Below are positions 21,773-32,701 of a stretch of DNA of 33,053 nt, piece after piece (position 1 is the first letter of the stretch; each line of letters begins with the position of its first letter). Position numbers and translations under genes: made by a program. Below the pieces are notes generated by a model, which had not been told where the DNA came from, did no database searches, and worked only from the letters and a program-made list of their open reading frames with translations. The stretch is taken from positions 1 through 33,053 of the forward strand of contig PLZG01000090.1 in NCBI GenBank assembly GCA_003152075.1, in the 5' to 3' direction. The DNA is from a candidate division FCPU426 bacterium (GTDB lineage Bacteria > Oederibacteriota > Muellerivitia > Muellerivitales > Muellerivitaceae).

Positions 21773-23044
21773 TCACAAACCATAGGAAAGACCAAAGCTA
21801 TACCCCGAGAAGGTTTGGGTTGAGGCGGCGCTGGAATTCACCGTCTTCTTGGTGATGGGGTTATAACTGACTCCCGCGGGGATGTCTTGCTCACCCTCCT
21901 GCAAGGACAAGCTAAGGGTTAAATGATCCAGGAAAATTATTTCGGAGCCTAGGGTGATCGAGGGGATCGTCTCGGTTTGGTTCAGGGAATGGGGGCGCCT
22001 ATGCAGGATATCCTGCCATTGGTAAGTGGTGGAATAATCCTGTTCCCCGGTCAGCGTGAAGGCCAGGAAATCCCAGGGCATGAAGGTGATGACCGCGCCG
22101 CCGGTCAGGTCCACGCTGTCGATCTCGTCGATCTGGTCCGAAGTCCCCCCCAGAATCGTGAAAAGAGCGCCTTGGTGGTTTTGCGGACTCCCTTCCAAAA
22201 TCAATCCCAATGAAAGCGGCTTGAAAAACTGGAAGGTCAAGGTCAGGGTGCCATCCAGGGAATTCAAGGCTTGCGCCCCCTGTTGAAAAGAAATATCTAA
22301 AGAAGGCAGGAAAAATCCGAAACCCAGACCCCCTCCCAACGAAAAAGCCCCAAAGCTGGTGTTCACGCCTTCCAGAACTTGCTGGCCCCCTCCCGCCTTG
22401 AAGGAAACATAATGGCCGCCCTCGGTAAAACTGTAATTGCCCGAAAGGCTTAGCTCCTGGCTGTACTGTCCTTGGCCTAGGGAAGAGGGCTGAATGGAAA
22501 AGGTGTAGCCCACATCCCCCGTCCAATCGGGTTTGAAGGGTTCCTCCTCGTCCTTTTCCGGGCTGTCCTCCTTTTGGGTTGGGGTGCTTTCCAAATCGGT
22601 CTGCGATTCGTGGGTCGAGGAAGCCTTTTCTTCATCCGGCAGTTGGGTTACCAGCGGGGCCGTGGGGGCGCTTTCCATCCCCGACGGGCTGACCGTCGTT
22701 AAAACGAAACGGTAGGTCTTGTCCATTTTCATTTTTTCAAGGAAGACATGGTTATCGGAAATGGGTTGGGCCGAAATTTTTCTTCCCATTTTTCCCTTCT
22801 CATCGGCCAGGTAAAGGTTGAATCGGAACCCATTTGCGGAGGAAGGGCTATCCCAGCTTAATTGGATGCCGTTTCCTTTTACCGCGGCCGTCAACCCCGC
22901 GGGAACCGGGGGCGCGCTGGGGGCGGCACCAGAGGGGCTTTCCGCCCCCCACCCGAAAGCCGTGACCCCTAGGAAAAGGGCCGCTGATAAAAAATATAAC
23001 TTATCGCGCATCTTGCTGGTCATTTCAACCGCTTCCCTTCTCAT
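21773..23044 (-). CDS. FN3-like domain plus outer-membrane beta-barrel protein
   Basis: A 423-residue exported protein. The signal peptide is in KLYFLSAALFLGVTAFGWG. Residues about 45-135 form a fibronectin-III-like domain (GLTAAVKGNGIQLSWDSP, RFVLTTVSPSG). An acidic Ser/Thr/Glu linker (about 138-170) follows. Residues about 172-423 are long Gly/aromatic beta strands that end in SGYSFGLSYGL, typical of an outer-membrane barrel. The first ATG overlaps the stop of the upstream gene by four bases (ATGA); ATGs at 23023 and 23011 are also possible. The overlap is with a second barrel gene now cut by an island, so the two barrels were once an operon. Confidence 0.78.
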   Translation of the reverse strand: MRREAVEMTSKMRDKLYFLSAALFLGVTAFGWGAESPSGAAPSAPPVPAGLTAAVKGNGIQLSWDSPSSANGFRFNLYLADEKGKMGRKISAQPISDNHVFLEKMKMDKTYRFVLTTVSPSGMESAPTAPLVTQLPDEEKASSTHESQTDLESTPTQKEDSPEKDEEEPFKPDWTGDVGYTFSIQPSSLGQGQYSQELSLSGNYSFTEGGHYVSFKAGGGQQVLEGVNTSFGAFSLGGGLGFGFFLPSLDISFQQGAQALNSLDGTLTLTFQFFKPLSLGLILEGSPQNHQGALFTILGGTSDQIDEIDSVDLTGGAVITFMPWDFLAFTLTGEQDYSTTYQWQDILHRRPHSLNQTETIPSITLGSEIIFLDHLTLSLSLQEGEQDIPAGVSYNPITKKTVNSSAASTQTFSGYSFGLSYGL

Positions 23045-23967
23045 AGGAATAAAGTCCCCTGGATTTCCGCGCCCAACGAGAGGCCGTAATGGCTCACATT
23101 GTCCAAGCTCACCCCCGGGCCCAGGAGGAATTTATTGTCCAGCCTGATTCCCTTGTCCTGGTACCCCACTCCCACCGTCGCCGAAGTATTGATGGAATTC
23201 AGGTTGACGCTTTGGGTGTAAATATCCTCTTCCGCGATCAGTCCCCCCCGCAGGGCCCATTGGGGCGAAAGCCTTTTTTCACCGCCCAAGACAAGCTGGT
23301 AGAGGTCATAGTCGGTGGCCGTGGTGGAACCGGTGGCTACCACCTGAACGTCGTAGATGTAACTTTGGTAGGTGAATTGAAGTCCCAGGGTATGGTCGCC
23401 CGGGGTTTCCATGCCGATGACTTCAACTGCAGTTTCTTTGATCGATCGGAAATCTAAAAAAAGGTGAATCCTATCTGGCGCAATAGAAAGTTTTTCGATG
23501 AGTTCATTAATTTTTTTATTAATCTCGATAACATCCCCGAATTGGTCTTCAACATTAATCCGAAGGCCTAAATCAGAGTTATTTTCCCGAATTATATCTT
23601 CAACGGTTTCAATTTCCTCAAGCGTCCTGTCTATTCCAATTACAGGTATTCCGCTAAGTCCCTTTACATTTAAAAAGTTTGAAAAAATCCGAAAGGGATT
23701 CTTAGTTTTGTATTCCAAATAGATATCGTAAAAATCATAAAAGAAGCCAAACCCTTCACCCCAATAAGTTTCGATTTTACTCGCTATATTTTCTAAGTGC
23801 TCTTCGATTGTGTGTTTCGGAGCTTTGGTTTTGAAATCAACAGGTATGTGAGGAATATCGACTAAAGGAAAAACATCTCTTTTGAATTCATTCTGCAACC
23901 AAGCAATTGCTCGAATATCCCCTTCTTTACCCTTGATGAAGGGTACATATTCAGTGAGATTATTCAC
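23041..23967 (-). CDS. Chimera: Beta-family protein N-half fused to barrel C-half
   Basis: A 308-codon open frame made of two unrelated parts. Residues 1 to about 185 (23967-23413) match the Beta protein family (T4 beta-like): YVPFIKGKEGDIRAIAWL and VFPLVDIPHIP at the start, then GIDRTLEEIE and RIHLFLDFRSI. Family members usually run well past 300 residues, so this one lacks its C-terminal half. Residues about 186-308 are outer-membrane barrel strands (YDLYQLVLGGEKRLSPQWAL, YGLSLGAEIQGTLFL) with no N-terminal part. Base composition changes from AT-rich to GC-rich near 23405-23440. The frame stays open by chance or selection. It overlaps the HigA-like gene by four bases upstream and the next barrel gene by four bases downstream. 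Either product is probably non-functional. Confidence 0.8.
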   Translation of the reverse strand: MNNLTEYVPFIKGKEGDIRAIAWLQNEFKRDVFPLVDIPHIPVDFKTKAPKHTIEEHLENIASKIETYWGEGFGFFYDFYDIYLEYKTKNPFRIFSNFLNVKGLSGIPVIGIDRTLEEIETVEDIIRENNSDLGLRINVEDQFGDVIEINKKINELIEKLSIAPDRIHLFLDFRSIKETAVEVIGMETPGDHTLGLQFTYQSYIYDVQVVATGSTTATDYDLYQLVLGGEKRLSPQWALRGGLIAEEDIYTQSVNLNSINTSATVGVGYQDKGIRLDNKFLLGPGVSLDNVSHYGLSLGAEIQGTLFL

Positions 23968-25169
23968 GCCGTCACCTCGGAAGAAAATAGACGCCTAACT
24001 TTCCCAGTACCAATAAGATCAGTAAAGTTCTCGTATTTTTTCAATTCGTAACGCAACCTCCCAGCAACTATTGCAGGGTGAATTTGTTGAGAATTCGCAA
24101 AACTTATAATTCCCTCTCTTGATCTCGAACGAAAAGCCGGGCTCGTCTTCCAAACCCTATGCGGAATAAATATTTCATCAACAATATCGTTTGTTTCTTT
24201 TTCAAGAATATCCGTTGAATCTTCATCGAATTTAATTGTGTCGAAAAAATATTTGTAAGTGCTTTTGAATAAATGGTTTTTTACGTGCACAAGTTCATGC
24301 ATCAATGTGAACCAAAAATAATCAAGACGGTCATACCTTAGGGTTAAACCAATGACAGGAGCGTTGTATTTGTTAACCATTGCCGCCCCATCTAATTTTG
24401 TTTTTAAAAAGTGCTTTTCAACCACTAAGGCGATTCCGTTTTTCTCCAAAAAATCTTTCGCAAGAAGAGGCCCATTCTCATAGCGGCTCATATGAGCGAT
24501 ATCCCGTAAAAAGTTATCATCCACTATATCTTTTTTATAATTTTTATAAAAATTATATTTTTCGGATTGTTTTTTTACAAACGTTTCCCAGACGCATAAA
24601 GAATTAAGTACCAACGGATCGTCGGTTGAGGTTTTAGAAGATTTTCTCCAGGCAACATCTCCAATACTTTGAAGATTGGACGTTCCAAAAAAATCCGAAA
24701 GTGCAGACCGAAATCCAACGTCGGTTCTGTCCTTAATATTTAAATAATTCCTATTGTTCATCTCTTTCAATGGAAACTGGTCAGCATCAAAGAGAGCTGT
24801 TGAAGGGTTCTTCGTGTCTAAAAGAACTTCCGCAGGTATGTCCAAATATTTGTTTAAGTTTTTTATCATTGGAAGTGATAAAGTAACCTTTCCAGCCAAC
24901 ACTTCGGACACTTTGCTCTTACTACCGATTATTGGAATTAAATCAGATTGTTTCATATTTCTTTCATTCATTCTGAAAATGATAAAATCAATTGGTGACT
25001 TTAACTCAAAAGGATAATGCTCCTTTTCGTATTTTTCGATTAAAGTCGCCAAAAGGGTCATATAGTTGAAATCGGCAGTGCCAACAGATGGGTTTTTATC
25101 CATTAGCAAATCTAATTCCGATTTCATTTTTTTATGTTCGTTTTCAGTTTCAATAATTTTTAAGTTCAT
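23964..25169 (-). CDS. higA: HigA-like antitoxin fused to ImmA/IrrE-type protease domain
   Basis: A 401-residue protein. Residues 1-118 match HigA antitoxins: MNLKIIETENEHKKMKSELD, LLATLIEKYEKEHYPFE, then a helix-turn-helix (MKQSDLIPIIGSKSKVSEVL). Residues about 120-270 are a linker region. Residues about 275-345 are an ImmA/IrrE-like zinc protease: HELVH at 291-295 supplies the two His and the catalytic Glu, and the KETNDIVDEIFIP segment supplies the third ligand. It should bind the HigB-like toxin and the promoter, and could be released by its own or a triggered proteolysis. Its start overlaps the toxin stop and its stop overlaps the Beta-family start, four bases each. AT-rich codons differ from the left flank. 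Confidence 0.85.
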   Translation of the reverse strand: MNLKIIETENEHKKMKSELDLLMDKNPSVGTADFNYMTLLATLIEKYEKEHYPFELKSPIDFIIFRMNERNMKQSDLIPIIGSKSKVSEVLAGKVTLSLPMIKNLNKYLDIPAEVLLDTKNPSTALFDADQFPLKEMNNRNYLNIKDRTDVGFRSALSDFFGTSNLQSIGDVAWRKSSKTSTDDPLVLNSLCVWETFVKKQSEKYNFYKNYKKDIVDDNFLRDIAHMSRYENGPLLAKDFLEKNGIALVVEKHFLKTKLDGAAMVNKYNAPVIGLTLRYDRLDYFWFTLMHELVHVKNHLFKSTYKYFFDTIKFDEDSTDILEKETNDIVDEIFIPHRVWKTSPAFRSRSREGIISFANSQQIHPAIVAGRLRYELKKYENFTDLIGTGKVRRLFSSEVTA

Positions 25170-25465
25170 TTCGGCTTCCTTTTCAAACTTCGCGTGTACT
25201 CAGCGTGGGTCAGTATCCATTCAATACTTACAATATTCGCAGGGTTATAAAGAATCTTCGTCTGCATTCGATATTTATTTCCGTGAACATTGAATACCAT
25301 TTTGTTCCCCCCTATCGGATCGGCCGATGGATAATTCTTTTTGACGTCATGGGGTGAACTCCACGTTGATTTCTCAACATCATTAACCCAATTCAAGAGC
25401 CAATTTTCTGCGTCTTTGTATGTTTTAATAAACTCATGGAGAATGTCTCTCCCCGATAATCGCAT
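25166..25465 (-). CDS. higB: HigB-type toxin
   Basis: A 99-residue HigB-type toxin (RelE-like mRNA interferase family that cuts mRNA on ribosomes). MRLSGRDILHEFIKTYKDAE and LLNWVNDVEKSTWSSP are the usual N-terminal helices. The core NKMVFNVHGNKYRMQTKI and the C-terminal IEWILTHAEYTRSL carry the family's THAEY motif. First gene of a three-gene overlapping operon: toxin, HigA-protease fusion, Beta-family protein. Toxin-first order is typical for HigBA. An inverted-repeat operator lies 61 bases upstream. Confidence 0.88.
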   Translation of the reverse strand: MRLSGRDILHEFIKTYKDAENWLLNWVNDVEKSTWSSPHDVKKNYPSADPIGGNKMVFNVHGNKYRMQTKILYNPANIVSIEWILTHAEYTRSLKRKPK

Positions 25466-25525
25466 CTAAAGGTCACTTTCTTGGGATTCTCCATTGGTTT
25501 ATCCACAATGAAACGATACCACACA

Positions 25526-25556
25526 GTTCCTAAAATAGGAACTAATTAATGTTCCC
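25526..25556 (-). promoter_or_regulatory. Operator-like repeat before the HigBA operon
   Basis: GTTCCTA (25526-25532) and TAGGAAC (25536-25542) form a perfect inverted repeat with a three-base spacer. A third half-site, GTTCCC, follows at 25551-25556. This is where a dimeric HigA-type repressor would be expected to bind. Confidence 0.6.
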
Positions 25557-25587: not shown

Positions 25588-25666
25588 TGGGGCAAAGCCC
25601 CAGGAGAAGGGGGGTGCGCCGGGGATTACCGAAGGAAGTCGAGGCCAGGGGGAAGGCTTTCCCCCT
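25588..25666. repeat. Two GC-rich hairpins in an AT-rich gap
   Basis: TGGGGC-AAA-GCCCCA (25588-25602) and AGGGGGAA-GGCT-TTCCCCCT (25647-25666) are perfect stems set in a GC-rich island of about 100 bases between the J-domain gene and the HigBA operon. Both genes are on the minus strand, so the hairpins may end the J-domain transcript, although no U tract follows. A structured RNA is also possible. Confidence 0.45.
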
Positions 25667-27286: not shown

Positions 27287-27658
27287 ATGGACATTTTCGA
27301 ACACGTTGGAAAGAAGATTCAGGAATTCAGGAATGGGATGGGTTTATCTCAAGAGGGCCTAGCAAAGGAACTAAAGGTAGCAACTAACACCATTTCCCGC
27401 TGGGAAACTGGAACGTATAAGCCGGATTTAAAAGATTTGGATTCTGTTGCACGGTTTTTCAAAGTTTCTATCATCGAATTCTTGCCTAAAGAAATGGTAC
27501 CTTCAAATGATCCAGTAAATGCCCTCCTGCGGGCAGCCAAGCAGTTGGAGCCTTCCGATTTGGAAGAATTGCAGCGTTATGCGGAATATCGTAAAGCGAA
27601 ACATCTTTTGAAAGATGCAACTCGTTCACGGCCAGGGAGAAAAAGAAAGGATGCCTGA
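27287..27658 (+). CDS. XRE-family transcriptional regulator
   Basis: A 123-residue regulator. Residues about 8-62 are an XRE helix-turn-helix (KIQEFRNGMGLSQEGLAKEL, then TNTISRWETGTYKPDLKDLD). The C-terminal half has a short helix pair (QLEPSDLEELQRYAEYRKAK) and a basic tail. GGAGG four bases before the ATG. It shares one base with the downstream ImmA/IrrE-like gene (TGATG), so both are made together. The pair resembles ImmR-ImmA, in which the protease cuts the repressor on a damage or quorum signal. Operator repeats upstream support autorepression. Confidence 0.9.
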   Translation: MDIFEHVGKKIQEFRNGMGLSQEGLAKELKVATNTISRWETGTYKPDLKDLDSVARFFKVSIIEFLPKEMVPSNDPVNALLRAAKQLEPSDLEELQRYAEYRKAKHLLKDATRSRPGRKRKDA

Positions 27659-28278
27659 TGGGAAGGTCCGAATATTACGAAGAAATGAAGGATCTAGCCC
27701 GACTCGTTCGAGCGGAATTCGGCATTTCTATCCCACGCGTAATGAAAAGCGACCTTCGCAAGATATTTCGCCATCATGGCATTGAATATGAGTTGTGGCC
27801 GCATAAGTTCAAAAAGCTTCGCGGCGCGTTTATCAATGATGATTATGGACCATCGATAATGGTCGCCAAAGATATGCCTCCTGAGCCTACGGTTTTTACC
27901 ATGGCACATGAGTTAAAGCATTTTTTAAAAGATAAAGATATCGCCACCTCTTATTGTGATCCTTCGAATCAAAAAGCGGAGATTGAAATTGGTGCCGAAG
28001 TTTTTGCGGCTGAGCTTTTGTTCCCTGATGCGGACTTTAAAACTCATATGGCAAGTGCCGGAGTAACCCTAGGAAATTGCACGGCAGAGCACCTGGTGCG
28101 GTTAAAAAACTCAACGAAAACCACGCTTAGTTATACGGGGCTTGCAAAAAAAGCTGTTTTCCTAGGGTTTGCTCCGAAAGGTGCCTTTGATGAGGTCAAA
28201 TGGAAACGCCTTGAGGAAAGCATTTTTGGTGTTCCGTTCTATAAGCGATTTAAAGGACGGCGTCGGAAAAACACCTAA
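27658..28278 (+). CDS. ImmA/IrrE-family metallopeptidase
   Basis: A 206-residue zinc protease. The active-site helix is VFTMAHELKHFLKD, with the HExxH motif HELKH at residues 84-88; the third ligand is expected in the EIGAEVFAAELLFP segment, which matches the family. The N-terminal 75 residues form the usual beta-rich cap. The C-terminal segment (about 130-206) includes a helix-turn-helix-like part (TTLSYTGLAKKAVFLGF). Family members cleave the XRE repressor encoded next to them, here with a one-base overlap. AT-rich codon use agrees with the island. Confidence 0.9.
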   Translation: MGRSEYYEEMKDLARLVRAEFGISIPRVMKSDLRKIFRHHGIEYELWPHKFKKLRGAFINDDYGPSIMVAKDMPPEPTVFTMAHELKHFLKDKDIATSYCDPSNQKAEIEIGAEVFAAELLFPDADFKTHMASAGVTLGNCTAEHLVRLKNSTKTTLSYTGLAKKAVFLGFAPKGAFDEVKWKRLEESIFGVPFYKRFKGRRRKNT

Positions 28279-28299: not shown

Positions 28300-29208
28300 T
28301 TATTTCTTGAGAATCTTTTCCACTTGGGGCTTCAACTCGTCGATAACCTTTTTATAGGGCGGCAAATCAGGGACCAAAGGCCCAAGCCATTGTTCCCAAG
28401 TCTTTTCCACTTCCACCATGACCACGGCAGGAAAGAAATCCGCCGCTACCTTGAAAACAACACCTTTTGCGGCGCATTTTCTCTCAAGGACCCCACGAAA
28501 CCCGGAAAGCTTCAAGGACCTGGAATAGGTCTTGAAGATACGCCAAAGGTCGTAAAAATCCCTAGCCCTTGACCGGCTCCATCCCCGTTTTTCCAAGACC
28601 CGTTTGTTTTGAAGAATGGCCCTCAGCTTTTCCGCCACGATCTCCTCCAGGGCATAGACCCTGATCTTGGCGCCCAACTTCTCCCCGTATTTGTGGATGA
28701 GGGATTTCTTAACCGTGGGTTTTAGCAGCTTCTCTTTATACGTGATCTCGACCAAAACCCTTGCCATGGGTTCCCTATGCCAAGGGAACTTCGCCCTTAT
28801 CTCGAATGCCTCCTGGCCATAAGGATGGGCTTTCTTTTCCTTGTAAGGCTTGCATACCACCTGAACTGGGGCGTATTCGTTCATGAAGGCGCTGGCTTTA
28901 TCGCAAGCCTCAATGATCGCCATTTCGAGGACTTTTCCCTTGGGAGCCTTGGGAAGGGCTGAGAAATCCAAGTCTTCCGAAAAACGGTAGTCGCCGAAAT
29001 AACACTTCTTGAGTGCCGTTCCACCTTTGAAAACCAAAGTGTCGTTGAGTTCCTTGACCCCGGCTATCCCGGCCAGGATGAAGGACAACAGGTAATCCCG
29101 TTCCAATATCTCCCAAGGCGCTCCTGTGGCCCTTCGGGCTTCTTCCAATCGTTGGCGTAAGGGTTTCAAGACTTGCCCTTTCCGGAAAGATTGTCCTGGA
29201 TCATCCAT
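28300..29208 (-). CDS. abiEii: AbiEii-type nucleotidyltransferase toxin
   Basis: A 302-residue protein of the AbiEii/AbiGii (DUF1814) family, the toxin of type IV toxin-antitoxin systems and of phage abortive infection; relatives add nucleotides to tRNA. The nucleotidyltransferase motif is complete: VFKGGTALKKCYFGDYRFSE followed by DLDFSAL, with GG, S and DxD in place. A later IVAEKLRAIL segment and RARDFYDLWRIF are the other family motifs. The ATG at 29208 lies inside the AbiEi gene (43-base overlap), the normal arrangement. Confidence 0.93.
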   Translation of the reverse strand: MDDPGQSFRKGQVLKPLRQRLEEARRATGAPWEILERDYLLSFILAGIAGVKELNDTLVFKGGTALKKCYFGDYRFSEDLDFSALPKAPKGKVLEMAIIEACDKASAFMNEYAPVQVVCKPYKEKKAHPYGQEAFEIRAKFPWHREPMARVLVEITYKEKLLKPTVKKSLIHKYGEKLGAKIRVYALEEIVAEKLRAILQNKRVLEKRGWSRSRARDFYDLWRIFKTYSRSLKLSGFRGVLERKCAAKGVVFKVAADFFPAVVMVEVEKTWEQWLGPLVPDLPPYKKVIDELKPQVEKILKK

Positions 29209-29996
29209 CGCTTATGGCAAGGCCCATTCGCCGGACCCGAAGGGTCCAGCTTCTGGAAAGCCGGACAGGGAACCTTTGCCAGACGTTCCAGCTTGGCCGC
29301 GCTGAACCCCCGCTTTTCCAATAGCCATCCCAGGCGCTTGCCAACGGCAACGTCCATGCGGATGGCGTATCCGATCATCTTTTCAAGGTCCAGCTTTTCC
29401 TTGAGAAGCCCCAAAGCGTTCAAGACCTCCCCAAAGCCGCCGAAATATTGCGGCATGGCCAGCCCGTCCAAAAGGGTCCTTTCCGGGTCGGTCATTTGGA
29501 TCTTCACTTCCCCTATCCAAACCTTTTCAAACCCAAAAAACCTCTCTGGGATGACCCGGATGAATTGGTAGTAGGTCTTTCCCACGGGATAACCACCCTT
29601 GGAACCGCCTCCCCGGACATAAGGCACCCAGGTGTCCTTGGTGGTCGTGGCGAAAACCTTCCGTGGGATTTGTTCGGTAAGTCCGTGGTGGTGGAGGGCC
29701 GACCAATGGCTGATGGCGCAATTGGGGACCAAGGCCGTGGCGATCTCGAATTCATGGACCGGAGCCCCGCCCGTAAGGGGGCCGGAAAGGCTGTAAAGCC
29801 CGCGCCGGACACCGGCAATCCAGCCGCCCTGGGTAAGCAAGTGCAACGCCTCCGGAAGGTAAGCCTGACGGATTCCCACCTTGGGGGCCAGCTTGCGGGC
29901 TTCCCCCATGGTGAAGACACGGTGGCCTTCCTCGGCCATAAGCCGGACCAATTCCATTCCAACATTTGTTCTTCGGGGTTGCGTAGCGGTCGTCAT
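29166..29996 (-). CDS. abiEi: AbiEi-type antitoxin/regulator
   Basis: A 276-residue antitoxin. The N-terminal winged helix (about residues 10-75: VFTMGEARKLAPKVGIRQAY, then GWIAGVRRGLYSLSG) binds DNA. The middle (about 85-200) is the antitoxin domain with AISHWSALHHHGLTEQIP and DPERTLLDGLAMPQYFGGF. It represses its own operon and neutralises the AbiEii toxin encoded downstream without protein contact in known type IV systems. GAGGTAGG precedes the ATG. ATTGCAAT repeats upstream are likely operators. Confidence 0.9.
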   Translation of the reverse strand: MTTATQPRRTNVGMELVRLMAEEGHRVFTMGEARKLAPKVGIRQAYLPEALHLLTQGGWIAGVRRGLYSLSGPLTGGAPVHEFEIATALVPNCAISHWSALHHHGLTEQIPRKVFATTTKDTWVPYVRGGGSKGGYPVGKTYYQFIRVIPERFFGFEKVWIGEVKIQMTDPERTLLDGLAMPQYFGGFGEVLNALGLLKEKLDLEKMIGYAIRMDVAVGKRLGWLLEKRGFSAAKLERLAKVPCPAFQKLDPSGPANGPCHKRWMIQDNLSGKGKS

Positions 29997-30160: not shown

Positions 30161-30808
30161 TTAATCACCCTGTATCGCCTCTAGGTATGGCCCCATGACC
30201 TTTTCGACCCGGCAGATTTTCGAGAACCTTGTGAGTTCATCCGTTTTCTTCCATTTGCTTCTCCAATAGTTACGGAGGGCCTCCAGGGCCGTATCCAGCC
30301 CAACGACAGTGCGGCACTTGAAACAATCCGCCAGGGTTTTCTCGCGGGAATAAACCCGGTAGGTTATGCCATCCACCTTTCGTTCCTCGATCCCCTCCGA
30401 AAAGGCTTTGCCCGAAAAATGGAACACCCTTATGGGTGGATTCTCCAGCCGTGGAACCCTGGCACCCATCTTGAGGGCCAGATAAATCTCATGGGGTATT
30501 TGGGTGGTCAGTTCATGAAGGGCAAGCGCCGAAATAAGGCAAAGGACCCCTTCCGGCACCCGTTTGGCTACCGTCACGATGTCTGGGTTTTCCAGGGACG
30601 GCATATCGGAAAGCCGGTAAAGGCCCCTGCTGAGCTGATCCAACAGTTTGGCGTCCCGCATGGCGTAAAGGTCCCTGGGATGGATACCCGCACGCATGGC
30701 TTCGGTGGACGAGAGAAGACCTCCGTGGCCTCGAAAGACCTGAATGGCTTTTTCGTATGATTTGGTTTTGGTCGTCGTTTCCATTCGGATAATATAGCCT
30801 ATAGTCAT
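30161..30808 (-). CDS. Orphan AbiEi-like antitoxin
   Basis: A 215-residue protein of the AbiEi family. The winged helix is FRGHGGLLSSTEAMRAGIHP followed by LLDQLSRGLYRLSD, the antitoxin domain is in LISALALHELTTQIPHEIYL and TYRVYSREKTLADCFKCR. ATG at 30784 (METTTKTKSYEK) is an alternative start. No AbiEii-type toxin lies next to it: downstream are only a hairpin and the other AbiE pair. It could be an anti-addiction gene, a regulator or the survivor of a broken pair. An inverted repeat overlaps its start region and suggests autoregulation. Confidence 0.88.
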   Translation of the reverse strand: MTIGYIIRMETTTKTKSYEKAIQVFRGHGGLLSSTEAMRAGIHPRDLYAMRDAKLLDQLSRGLYRLSDMPSLENPDIVTVAKRVPEGVLCLISALALHELTTQIPHEIYLALKMGARVPRLENPPIRVFHFSGKAFSEGIEERKVDGITYRVYSREKTLADCFKCRTVVGLDTALEALRNYWRSKWKKTDELTRFSKICRVEKVMGPYLEAIQGD

Positions 30809-30989: not shown

Positions 30990-31049
30990 ACTCCCCGAAA
31001 TTCCCTGGAAGATGTGGGGTTTTTACCACATCTCTGGGAGGAAAAAGGA

Positions 31050-31395
31050 GTGTACAAGGACATGGACCAATGGACTGAAATCCGTAAGAAAATCCTGGTG
31101 GAGGGGGTCTCCAAGCGCCAGGTGATGGAGGAAGAAGGCATCCACTGGGAGACCTTGAAGAAAATCCTCGAAAACAGCCAGCCGCCCGACTACCAGATGA
31201 AGCAGGAGCGGCCCCAGCCAAAGATCGGGCCCTTCCTGGGCCGAATCCAGCAAATCCTCCAGGACGACAAGCACGTCCACAAAAAGCAGCACCACACGGC
31301 CAAGCGCATCTTCGAGCGCCTCAAGGCCGAGGACGGCTACACCGGCGGCTATACGCAGGTCAAAAAGGCCGTCCGGGGCTTGAAACGCAAAAACT
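31050..31395 (+). pseudogene. istA: Truncated IS21 transposase IstA
   Basis: About 115 codons from GTG at 31050 (read MYKDMDQWTEIRKK), with GGAGG eight bases upstream; an ATG at 31014 is also in frame. The helix-turn-helix region WTEIRKKILVEGVSKRQVME and HWETLKKILENS are characteristic of IstA, as are PKIGPFLGRIQQIL and HTAKRIFERLKAEDGY. The frame stays open to 31724, but after about KRKN it is only the antisense of the TraD-like gene. The DDE catalytic domain is absent, so it cannot transpose. Confidence 0.85.
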
Positions 31396-32617
31396 CGTCC
31401 AAAAAGACGAAAAAGGGCCTATCTGACTTCTCAATAAGCCTTTGCCCTATTACCCCTGCCAAGTCGATTAAGGCCGAAATAATTACTGGTTTAGAGTCTT
31501 CCTGGTTCACAAGGGAAGATGTGCCGAATAGAAATATCTGTTCTTTCTCAACCACATCCTTCATCTGGATATCCGGGTGCAAGGTATTGATGAGAGGCGA
31601 CCATTCCCTGCTGGTAAACCGGGAAAGTTTGCTAGTAAGGCCCGATAGGTTCATTTCCCTGTCCTTTTCGGACATATTGACCCACTTCTCCATGAAGTAT
31701 TTCCCTGAGACTGTGTCCTCGTGACGCCTTGCCAAAGCCTTAATCGTGTCAAATGACCTGATCTCATTGGATATAAGGTTCTGGTAATCCATCCGCGTGA
31801 CATGCTTGAACTCCAGGAAAAGAAGGTTTGTCAGGTTGCTCAAAACGTCTGCGGCTTGGTCCCGATAAAATTCCTGTGTCACCGGCCCAAAAAAAATCGA
31901 CTTCATGAGGCCATTAAAAACCTCGTCGGCCTTTTCCTTAAAGTCAGGGTTGTAGGTCTGGCTTCGTTTGATATCCGCTAAGTCAAAGTATTTTAGGTCG
32001 CCAAGCCTTCGGTGCTTTTCAGCGTAATAAGGGATGGTTTTGTTGTAATTGGATTTGGCATCGAAAACAAACATTCCAAGGCCATCCTTGATTCCCTGTT
32101 CAATGAGATAATTGAAAATATTGGTCTTGCCCATGCCTGAAGATCCGATAACTTCAGTGTGGTACTTGAGAAAGTCCCCAGGAATGAAATATTTATATTC
32201 CGCATCCAGGTATAAGGAATATTTCCCTCCTTCCTCTTTTGGTGATTCCCCCTGATGGTCCGGGACATGCCTCATCAAGAAATGAATGAAATAAAAGCAA
32301 AAGCCGATGATGATGGAAATGCCCATCACAACATCACCCGTAAACCCTTCGTTTCCCAGGAACACCCCGAAAAAGTCATGGCAGAAGGCCAGGGCTATAA
32401 CGGCTGGAGCAAAGGCTAGAAGGTGGTCAATGCGGACATGCTTCTCAAACAAGTAGAGAAATCCCACGGAAAGGGCCGCTAGGGTGTCAAAAGGGGTAAA
32501 GGACAGTCCAATGACCCCAAAGACCTCAAGCGTGAATTTAAGACCCGAATAGACCCCAAATCCGACCAGGACAGGGGGAGTGTGCTTCTCAATTGCTTTA
32601 AAAAAATTTGAAAACAT
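31349..32617 (-). pseudogene. TraD/VirD4-like coupling ATPase, C-terminally truncated
   Basis: 422 codons from ATG at 32617 (MFSNFFKAIEKH; a TTG six codons earlier is possible). Residues about 14-118 hold about four membrane helices. Walker A GSSGMGKTNIFNYL is at about 158-171, and FVFDAKSNYNK follows. The C-terminus reaches FFVFLDEF, the Walker B segment, and then runs into insertion-sequence DNA (LRFKPRTAFLTCV). Coupling proteins feed DNA to conjugative type IV secretion; about 150 or more C-terminal residues with the rest of the ATPase core are missing. Some product may still be made, but DNA transfer activity is unlikely. No relaxase is in the window. Confidence 0.8.
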
Positions 32618-32701
32618 CAGGCGGCTTCCACCCAATAGTATTTTGATTACTAACCACGATTAGATTTAAGCCGGGTTGAGGATTCATGCAAGGTAATACT
32701 G

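Follow-up and report, generated by a model that had tools for sequence, protein, structure and literature searches.

Does a HigB-like gene, followed by a HigA-type gene with a protease domain and by a Beta-family gene, form a working three-part defence system in a candidate division FCPU426 bacterium? The initial annotation had proposed as much for the window (the whole stretch of DNA analysed, 33,053 nucleotides of contig PLZG01000090.1), with a HigB toxin, a HigA antitoxin that may be self-cleaved or trigger-cleaved, and a Beta protein acting as sensor or effector. We determined the identities, order and overlaps of the three genes (A, B and C), the truncation of the third, the operator and the conservation of the active-site motif. 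The window locus is very probably a partly decayed PD-λ-2 system. Coordinates are collected in the table.

Features of the PD-λ-2-like locus (positions in the window)
Feature	Position	Strand	Basis
Operator palindrome upstream of A	25525..25543		+ strand AGTTCCTAAAATAGGAACT; perfect match to TTCCYANNNTRGGAA
Terminator-like hairpin	25588..25602	-	TGGGGCTTTGCCCCA then AGCCCTTTTT; between the operon and the upstream DnaJ-domain gene
A: HigB-like protein, 99 aa (PD-Lambda-2_A)	25166..25465	-	Pfam PF09907 9.6e-24; PADLOC PDLC03981 2e-32
B: HigA-type HTH fused to M78/ImmA-IrrE-like zinc protease domain, 401 aa (PD-Lambda-2_B)	23964..25169	-	PADLOC PDLC03982 2.7e-131 over 1-398
C': 5' half of Beta-family gene, residues 1-176	23440..23967	-	PF14350 profile 1-166 of 342; PD-Lambda-2_C models; GC ~32%
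Junction of Beta half and outer-membrane protein tail	23416..23442	-	last residue with Beta homology 176 (23440); outer-membrane protein homology from ~184 (23418); GC step
Outer-membrane beta-barrel protein gene tail, ~125 aa, in frame with C'	23041..23418	-	38% identity to residues 359-485 of a 485-aa paralogue in the same genome (G000:C110); GC ~52%

The three genes lie on the minus strand in the order A-B-C, and the 4-bp overlaps read initially between successive genes were borne out at both A/B and B/C, while the interval 23964-25556 originally assigned to the operon leaves C outside. PADLOC identified all three proteins as PD-Lambda-2 components A, B and C (the last at 1.2e-20). The A-B-C operon is a member of PD-λ-2, a known anti-phage toxin-antitoxin system that, according to its 2022 description (PMC9519451), was found by E. 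coli fosmid selection as a three-gene abortive-infection system of a HigB-like protein, a HigA-peptidase fusion and a P4-antitoxin-like protein; the window operon has this architecture. E. coli loci with the same gene order are annotated as HigB, ImmA-IrrE and beta family protein, with a C of 375-377 aa. Since PD-λ-2 was published with the same architecture, and HTH-peptidase fusions beside RelE and PIN toxins had been noticed in a 2009 survey (PMC2701414), both the gene association and the three-part idea were already known. Hence the three-gene association is not new, and what the locus adds is a divergent relative of PD-λ-2, from a draft genome of uncultured type, with the warning that it is probably broken.

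The A protein belongs to the HigB_toxin family, as had been proposed. In B, the N-terminal ~120-122 aa match solved HigA structures (profile match, 4e-12); Pfam gave no match above cut-off for this protein, and a weak Peptidase_M78 match below the cut-off covers residues 267-332 with the HELVH motif (residues 291-295). The AlphaFold model of B (mean pLDDT 86) matches E. coli HigA, and its C-terminal half matches the CapP and IrrE/PprI folds (Foldseek, with weak E-values and high probabilities). Taken together, these matches confirm the architecture of a HigA-type protein carrying an ImmA/IrrE-like domain. Residues H291, E292, H295, H299, D310 and E323 are invariant in 28 aligned homologues and HExxH is intact in 87 of 87 B proteins examined; as the motif is conserved, the objection that the protease domain might be inactive in all homologues does not apply. 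Window B is 34-41% identical to its relatives and sits on a long tree branch, so that it is uncertain how far function can be carried over from E. coli.

The operator-like promoter site proposed upstream of A proved real: it is a perfect palindrome with 8-bp arms (shuffle P=0.008; minus strand AGTTCCTA-TTT-TAGGAACT) and matches an operator conserved in relatives. With up to 1 mismatch allowed, TTCCYANNNTRGGAA occurs nowhere else in the window. The operator TGTTCCCANNNTGGGAACA is conserved 5' of HigB-like genes in C-bearing, C-less and plain HigBA loci (relatives L012-L131). Within 2 mismatches, TTCCYANNNTRGGAA was found in 34 of 34 C-bearing loci, a count that is partly circular because the pattern was first derived from such loci, and in 31 of 47 C-less loci, which constitute the independent test; about 1.5 would be expected per set. 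The consensus also occurs within 2 mismatches in three E. coli loci. HigB and HigA-type domains, their order and a conserved operator are present at A/B, a putative HigBA-type pair, and the HigA-type domain of B most likely binds the operator. The genome contains a second HigB-HigA pair (G000:C69:45-719), whose HigA of 123 aa is without a protease domain; the same operator lies upstream of this pair at 1 mismatch.

The third gene was expected to be a Beta-family gene, which holds for its beginning and fails for the remainder. The C ORF (23041-23967, minus strand, 308 aa, GTG start) opens as a Beta_protein (PF14350, 1.5e-20), its likeness to this family extends no further than profile position 166 of 342, and the remaining residues align with the C-terminal end of an outer-membrane protein. 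The frame stays open across the junction, where the GC content jumps in a 25-bp profile. The outer-membrane protein family measures ~485-520 aa, and the same tail was found in same-genus and same-family genomes. Judged by these homologies, C is truncated and chimeric: the 5' half of a Beta gene runs on in frame into an outer-membrane protein tail. In two same-family genomes, by contrast, B is followed directly by an intact C, of 388 aa in one and 375 aa in the other. A genome-wide search did not find the missing second half of C elsewhere, nor was a separate N-terminus of the outer-membrane protein found in the genome. Relatives yielded no ancestral uninterrupted outer-membrane gene beside the 21773-23044 gene; the homologues lay on different contigs. 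Searched against plasmids, the full C ORF had no match, although B led to a plasmid neighbour with C. The most economical event would be a single deletion that brought C and the outer-membrane gene together. The likeness had initially been described as "T4 beta-like", while the literature relates the family to the P4 beta protein and not to a T4 protein (PMC9519451, PMC9122126).

To judge what the truncation removes, we considered the predicted fold of a 388-aa C homologue. Its model (pLDDT 85, pTM 0.85) has the strand-helix order of an eight-stranded barrel followed by a C-terminal domain; the fold search returned generic TIM barrels with moderate scores and one phage protein matching the model over its whole length (TM 0.79), and no credible sequence match to the C profile turned up in the PDB. 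Full C is accordingly predicted to be a TIM barrel with a C-terminal domain. Window C is cut at or after strand 6, so that strands 7-8 and the C-terminal domain are missing, and of nine invariant residues it keeps those up to D172 and has lost five (R233, D257, G292, D324 and H351 in the numbering of the 388-aa homologue). It is very unlikely that window C folds like the intact protein, and because of the truncation the role of sensor or effector proposed for it is unlikely in the window. The PD-Lambda-2_C models of PADLOC include a short one, of 192 positions, so half-length versions of C may occur in other genomes and might be functional there. As the complete Beta-family third gene is missing, the locus is a degenerate PD-λ-2 descendant rather than a complete system; the idea of a three-part defence system is right for the family and falters in the window on the truncated C.

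The initial annotation had also asked whether the neighbourhood of the Beta-family gene might be due to chance. Scanning genome contigs with a B profile retrieved at least 589 relatives, and the best 80 were examined. As these 80 were chosen by score and all carry the one search motif adjoining HExxH, their proportions are not population frequencies: A lies upstream of B in 76, and downstream of B a full C follows directly in 29, a short C in 3 and no C despite room in 39, while in 9 the contig runs out ("no C" denoting no profile match although more than 1.2 kb is available downstream). The 32 C matches comprise 29 of 352-412 aa and 3 short ones, 2 of them at contig ends. A Dehalococcoidales locus (L072) has another truncated C, of 68 aa, despite the 2.8 kb that lie downstream.

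On the B tree, the C-bearing label requires 5 changes, compared with 26.6 when labels are shuffled; full C after B is thus clustered, and the adjacency is not chance. Window B falls in the main C-bearing clade of 29 rows (UFboot 94 / SH-aLRT 98), of which 28 are labelled C-bearing (window included) and one is cut by a contig end; it stands next to a same-family homologue, its exact position being less sure because the row is long-branched. Another, smaller C-bearing group is found elsewhere on the tree. The 39 loci without C, nearly all with A, represent two-gene HigB/HigA-M78 modules, which share A, B and the operator motif with the window, differ in the lack of C and occupy mostly separate branches. 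This separation of C-bearing from C-less lineages is strong, so the role of C can be tested by comparing both kinds. In one C-less branch, a type I restriction R-subunit gene (hsdR) follows B instead of Beta (L053, L073, L093, L101, L110, L116 and L118; two by Pfam and the others by similarity, some cut short). Viral contigs contained no B relative, and B matches in phage records were limited to the HTH part or to distant proteins. Possible, if doubtful, is that the C-truncated form represents a stable end state, in which the A-B pair is kept under its operator as an addiction or regulatory module, and that gain and loss of a Beta-family trigger gene turn two-gene HigB/HigA-M78 modules into three-gene defence systems and back, one branch having become linked to type I restriction instead.

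Which partner is toxic bears directly on the mechanism. The family assignments to HigB and HigA stood, while the polarity drawn from them did not agree with E. coli PD-λ-2, where, according to Vassallo 2022 (PMC9519451), B alone is toxic on overexpression and A rescues, C is dispensable for neutralisation while protection from λvir depends on it, and the mode of action is abortive infection; the sections consulted report no antitoxin cleavage. By analogy, intact A and B would form an autoregulated toxin-antitoxin-like pair, in which the HigA-type HTH of B, alone or with A, would repress through the conserved TGTTCCCA-N3-TGGGAACA operator, the protease-bearing B would be the toxic part and A the antidote. 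Intact C would couple infection to release of the toxic activity and hence to abortive infection, the trigger step being our inference. In the window genome, a deletion or rearrangement would then have broken both C and an outer-membrane protein gene in their middle parts and joined them. Cut mid-gene and fused to the outer-membrane tail, C is not expected to fold, and the operon has probably lost its phage defence; A-B may remain as an addiction-like or regulatory pair.

Other explanations were weighed against this partly decayed PD-λ-2. The cell could have a functional PD-λ-2 whose C is complete and was wrongly joined to the outer-membrane gene during assembly, in keeping with a draft genome in 114 contigs, the sharp GC step and the fact that the junction was seen in no relative searched. 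Nevertheless, the junction contains no Ns, the join is in frame, and after a misjoin the orphan ends would usually turn up on other contigs, whereas neither the missing half of C nor the outer-membrane N-terminus was found in the rest of this genome, which is rated 99.97% complete; we consider such an artefact unlikely. If the junction is genuine, its product might be a functional new protein, as suggested by the single open frame of 308 aa that still overlaps B by 4 bp. However, no signal peptide of its own precedes the barrel tail, only half a TIM barrel is present, the relatives' genomes and plasmids searched gave no second instance, and an in-frame same-strand joining has a chance of about 1 in 6 anyway, which makes a functional chimera hardly credible.

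It is also quite improbable that the system works with the polarity originally proposed, A being the toxin, B an antitoxin removed by its own or a phage-triggered protease activity, and the truncated C still sensing or modulating. The HigB fold of A, the HExxH motif conserved in 87 of 87 relatives and the 2009 proposal that an HTH-fused COG2856 protease cleaves a repressor serving as antitoxin of RelE or PIN toxins (PMC2701414) are in line with it, but the E. coli toxicity and rescue results point the other way, and the truncated C is without strands 7-8 and the C-terminal domain.

The decayed PD-λ-2 can also be placed among related systems. With PD-λ-2 itself it shares the three components, their order and strand, the HTH and HExxH protease in B, the HigB-like A and the P4-beta-like C; it differs in a C of which the first ~176 residues remain, attached to the tail of an outer-membrane protein, and in the low identity of B to other members. 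As in E. coli K-12 HigBA, a HigB family gene precedes HigA and the N-terminal ~122 aa of B match HigA structures, whereas window B has an extra protease domain and a third gene follows. The Beta protein of P4 gop-beta-cII, for which defence against λ and P1 was reported (PMC9122126), is in the same family as C, and the PADLOC beta model matches intact C homologues, but gop and cII are absent in the window, where the partners are HigB and HigA-M78. In CapH/CapP and ImmR/ImmA an HTH repressor and an M78 protease likewise act together, encoded there by separate genes and fused in window B. By-products of the analysis are the fold prediction and nine invariant residues of C, the operator common to the HigB/HigA-M78 group and the distinction of C-bearing and C-less lineages.

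Further along the window, an HTH repressor and an M78 protease, CapH/CapP- or ImmR/ImmA-like, are encoded by two overlapping separate genes (27287-28278). Owing to an AbiEii/AbiEi pair (28300-29996) and a further AbiEi-like gene (30161-30808), the stretch resembles a defence island. Moreover, a type IV secretion coupling-protein-like gene with TrwB/HerA domains (31349-32635) is overlapped by a plus-strand ORF without a Pfam match (31014-31724), which suggests a degraded mobile element.
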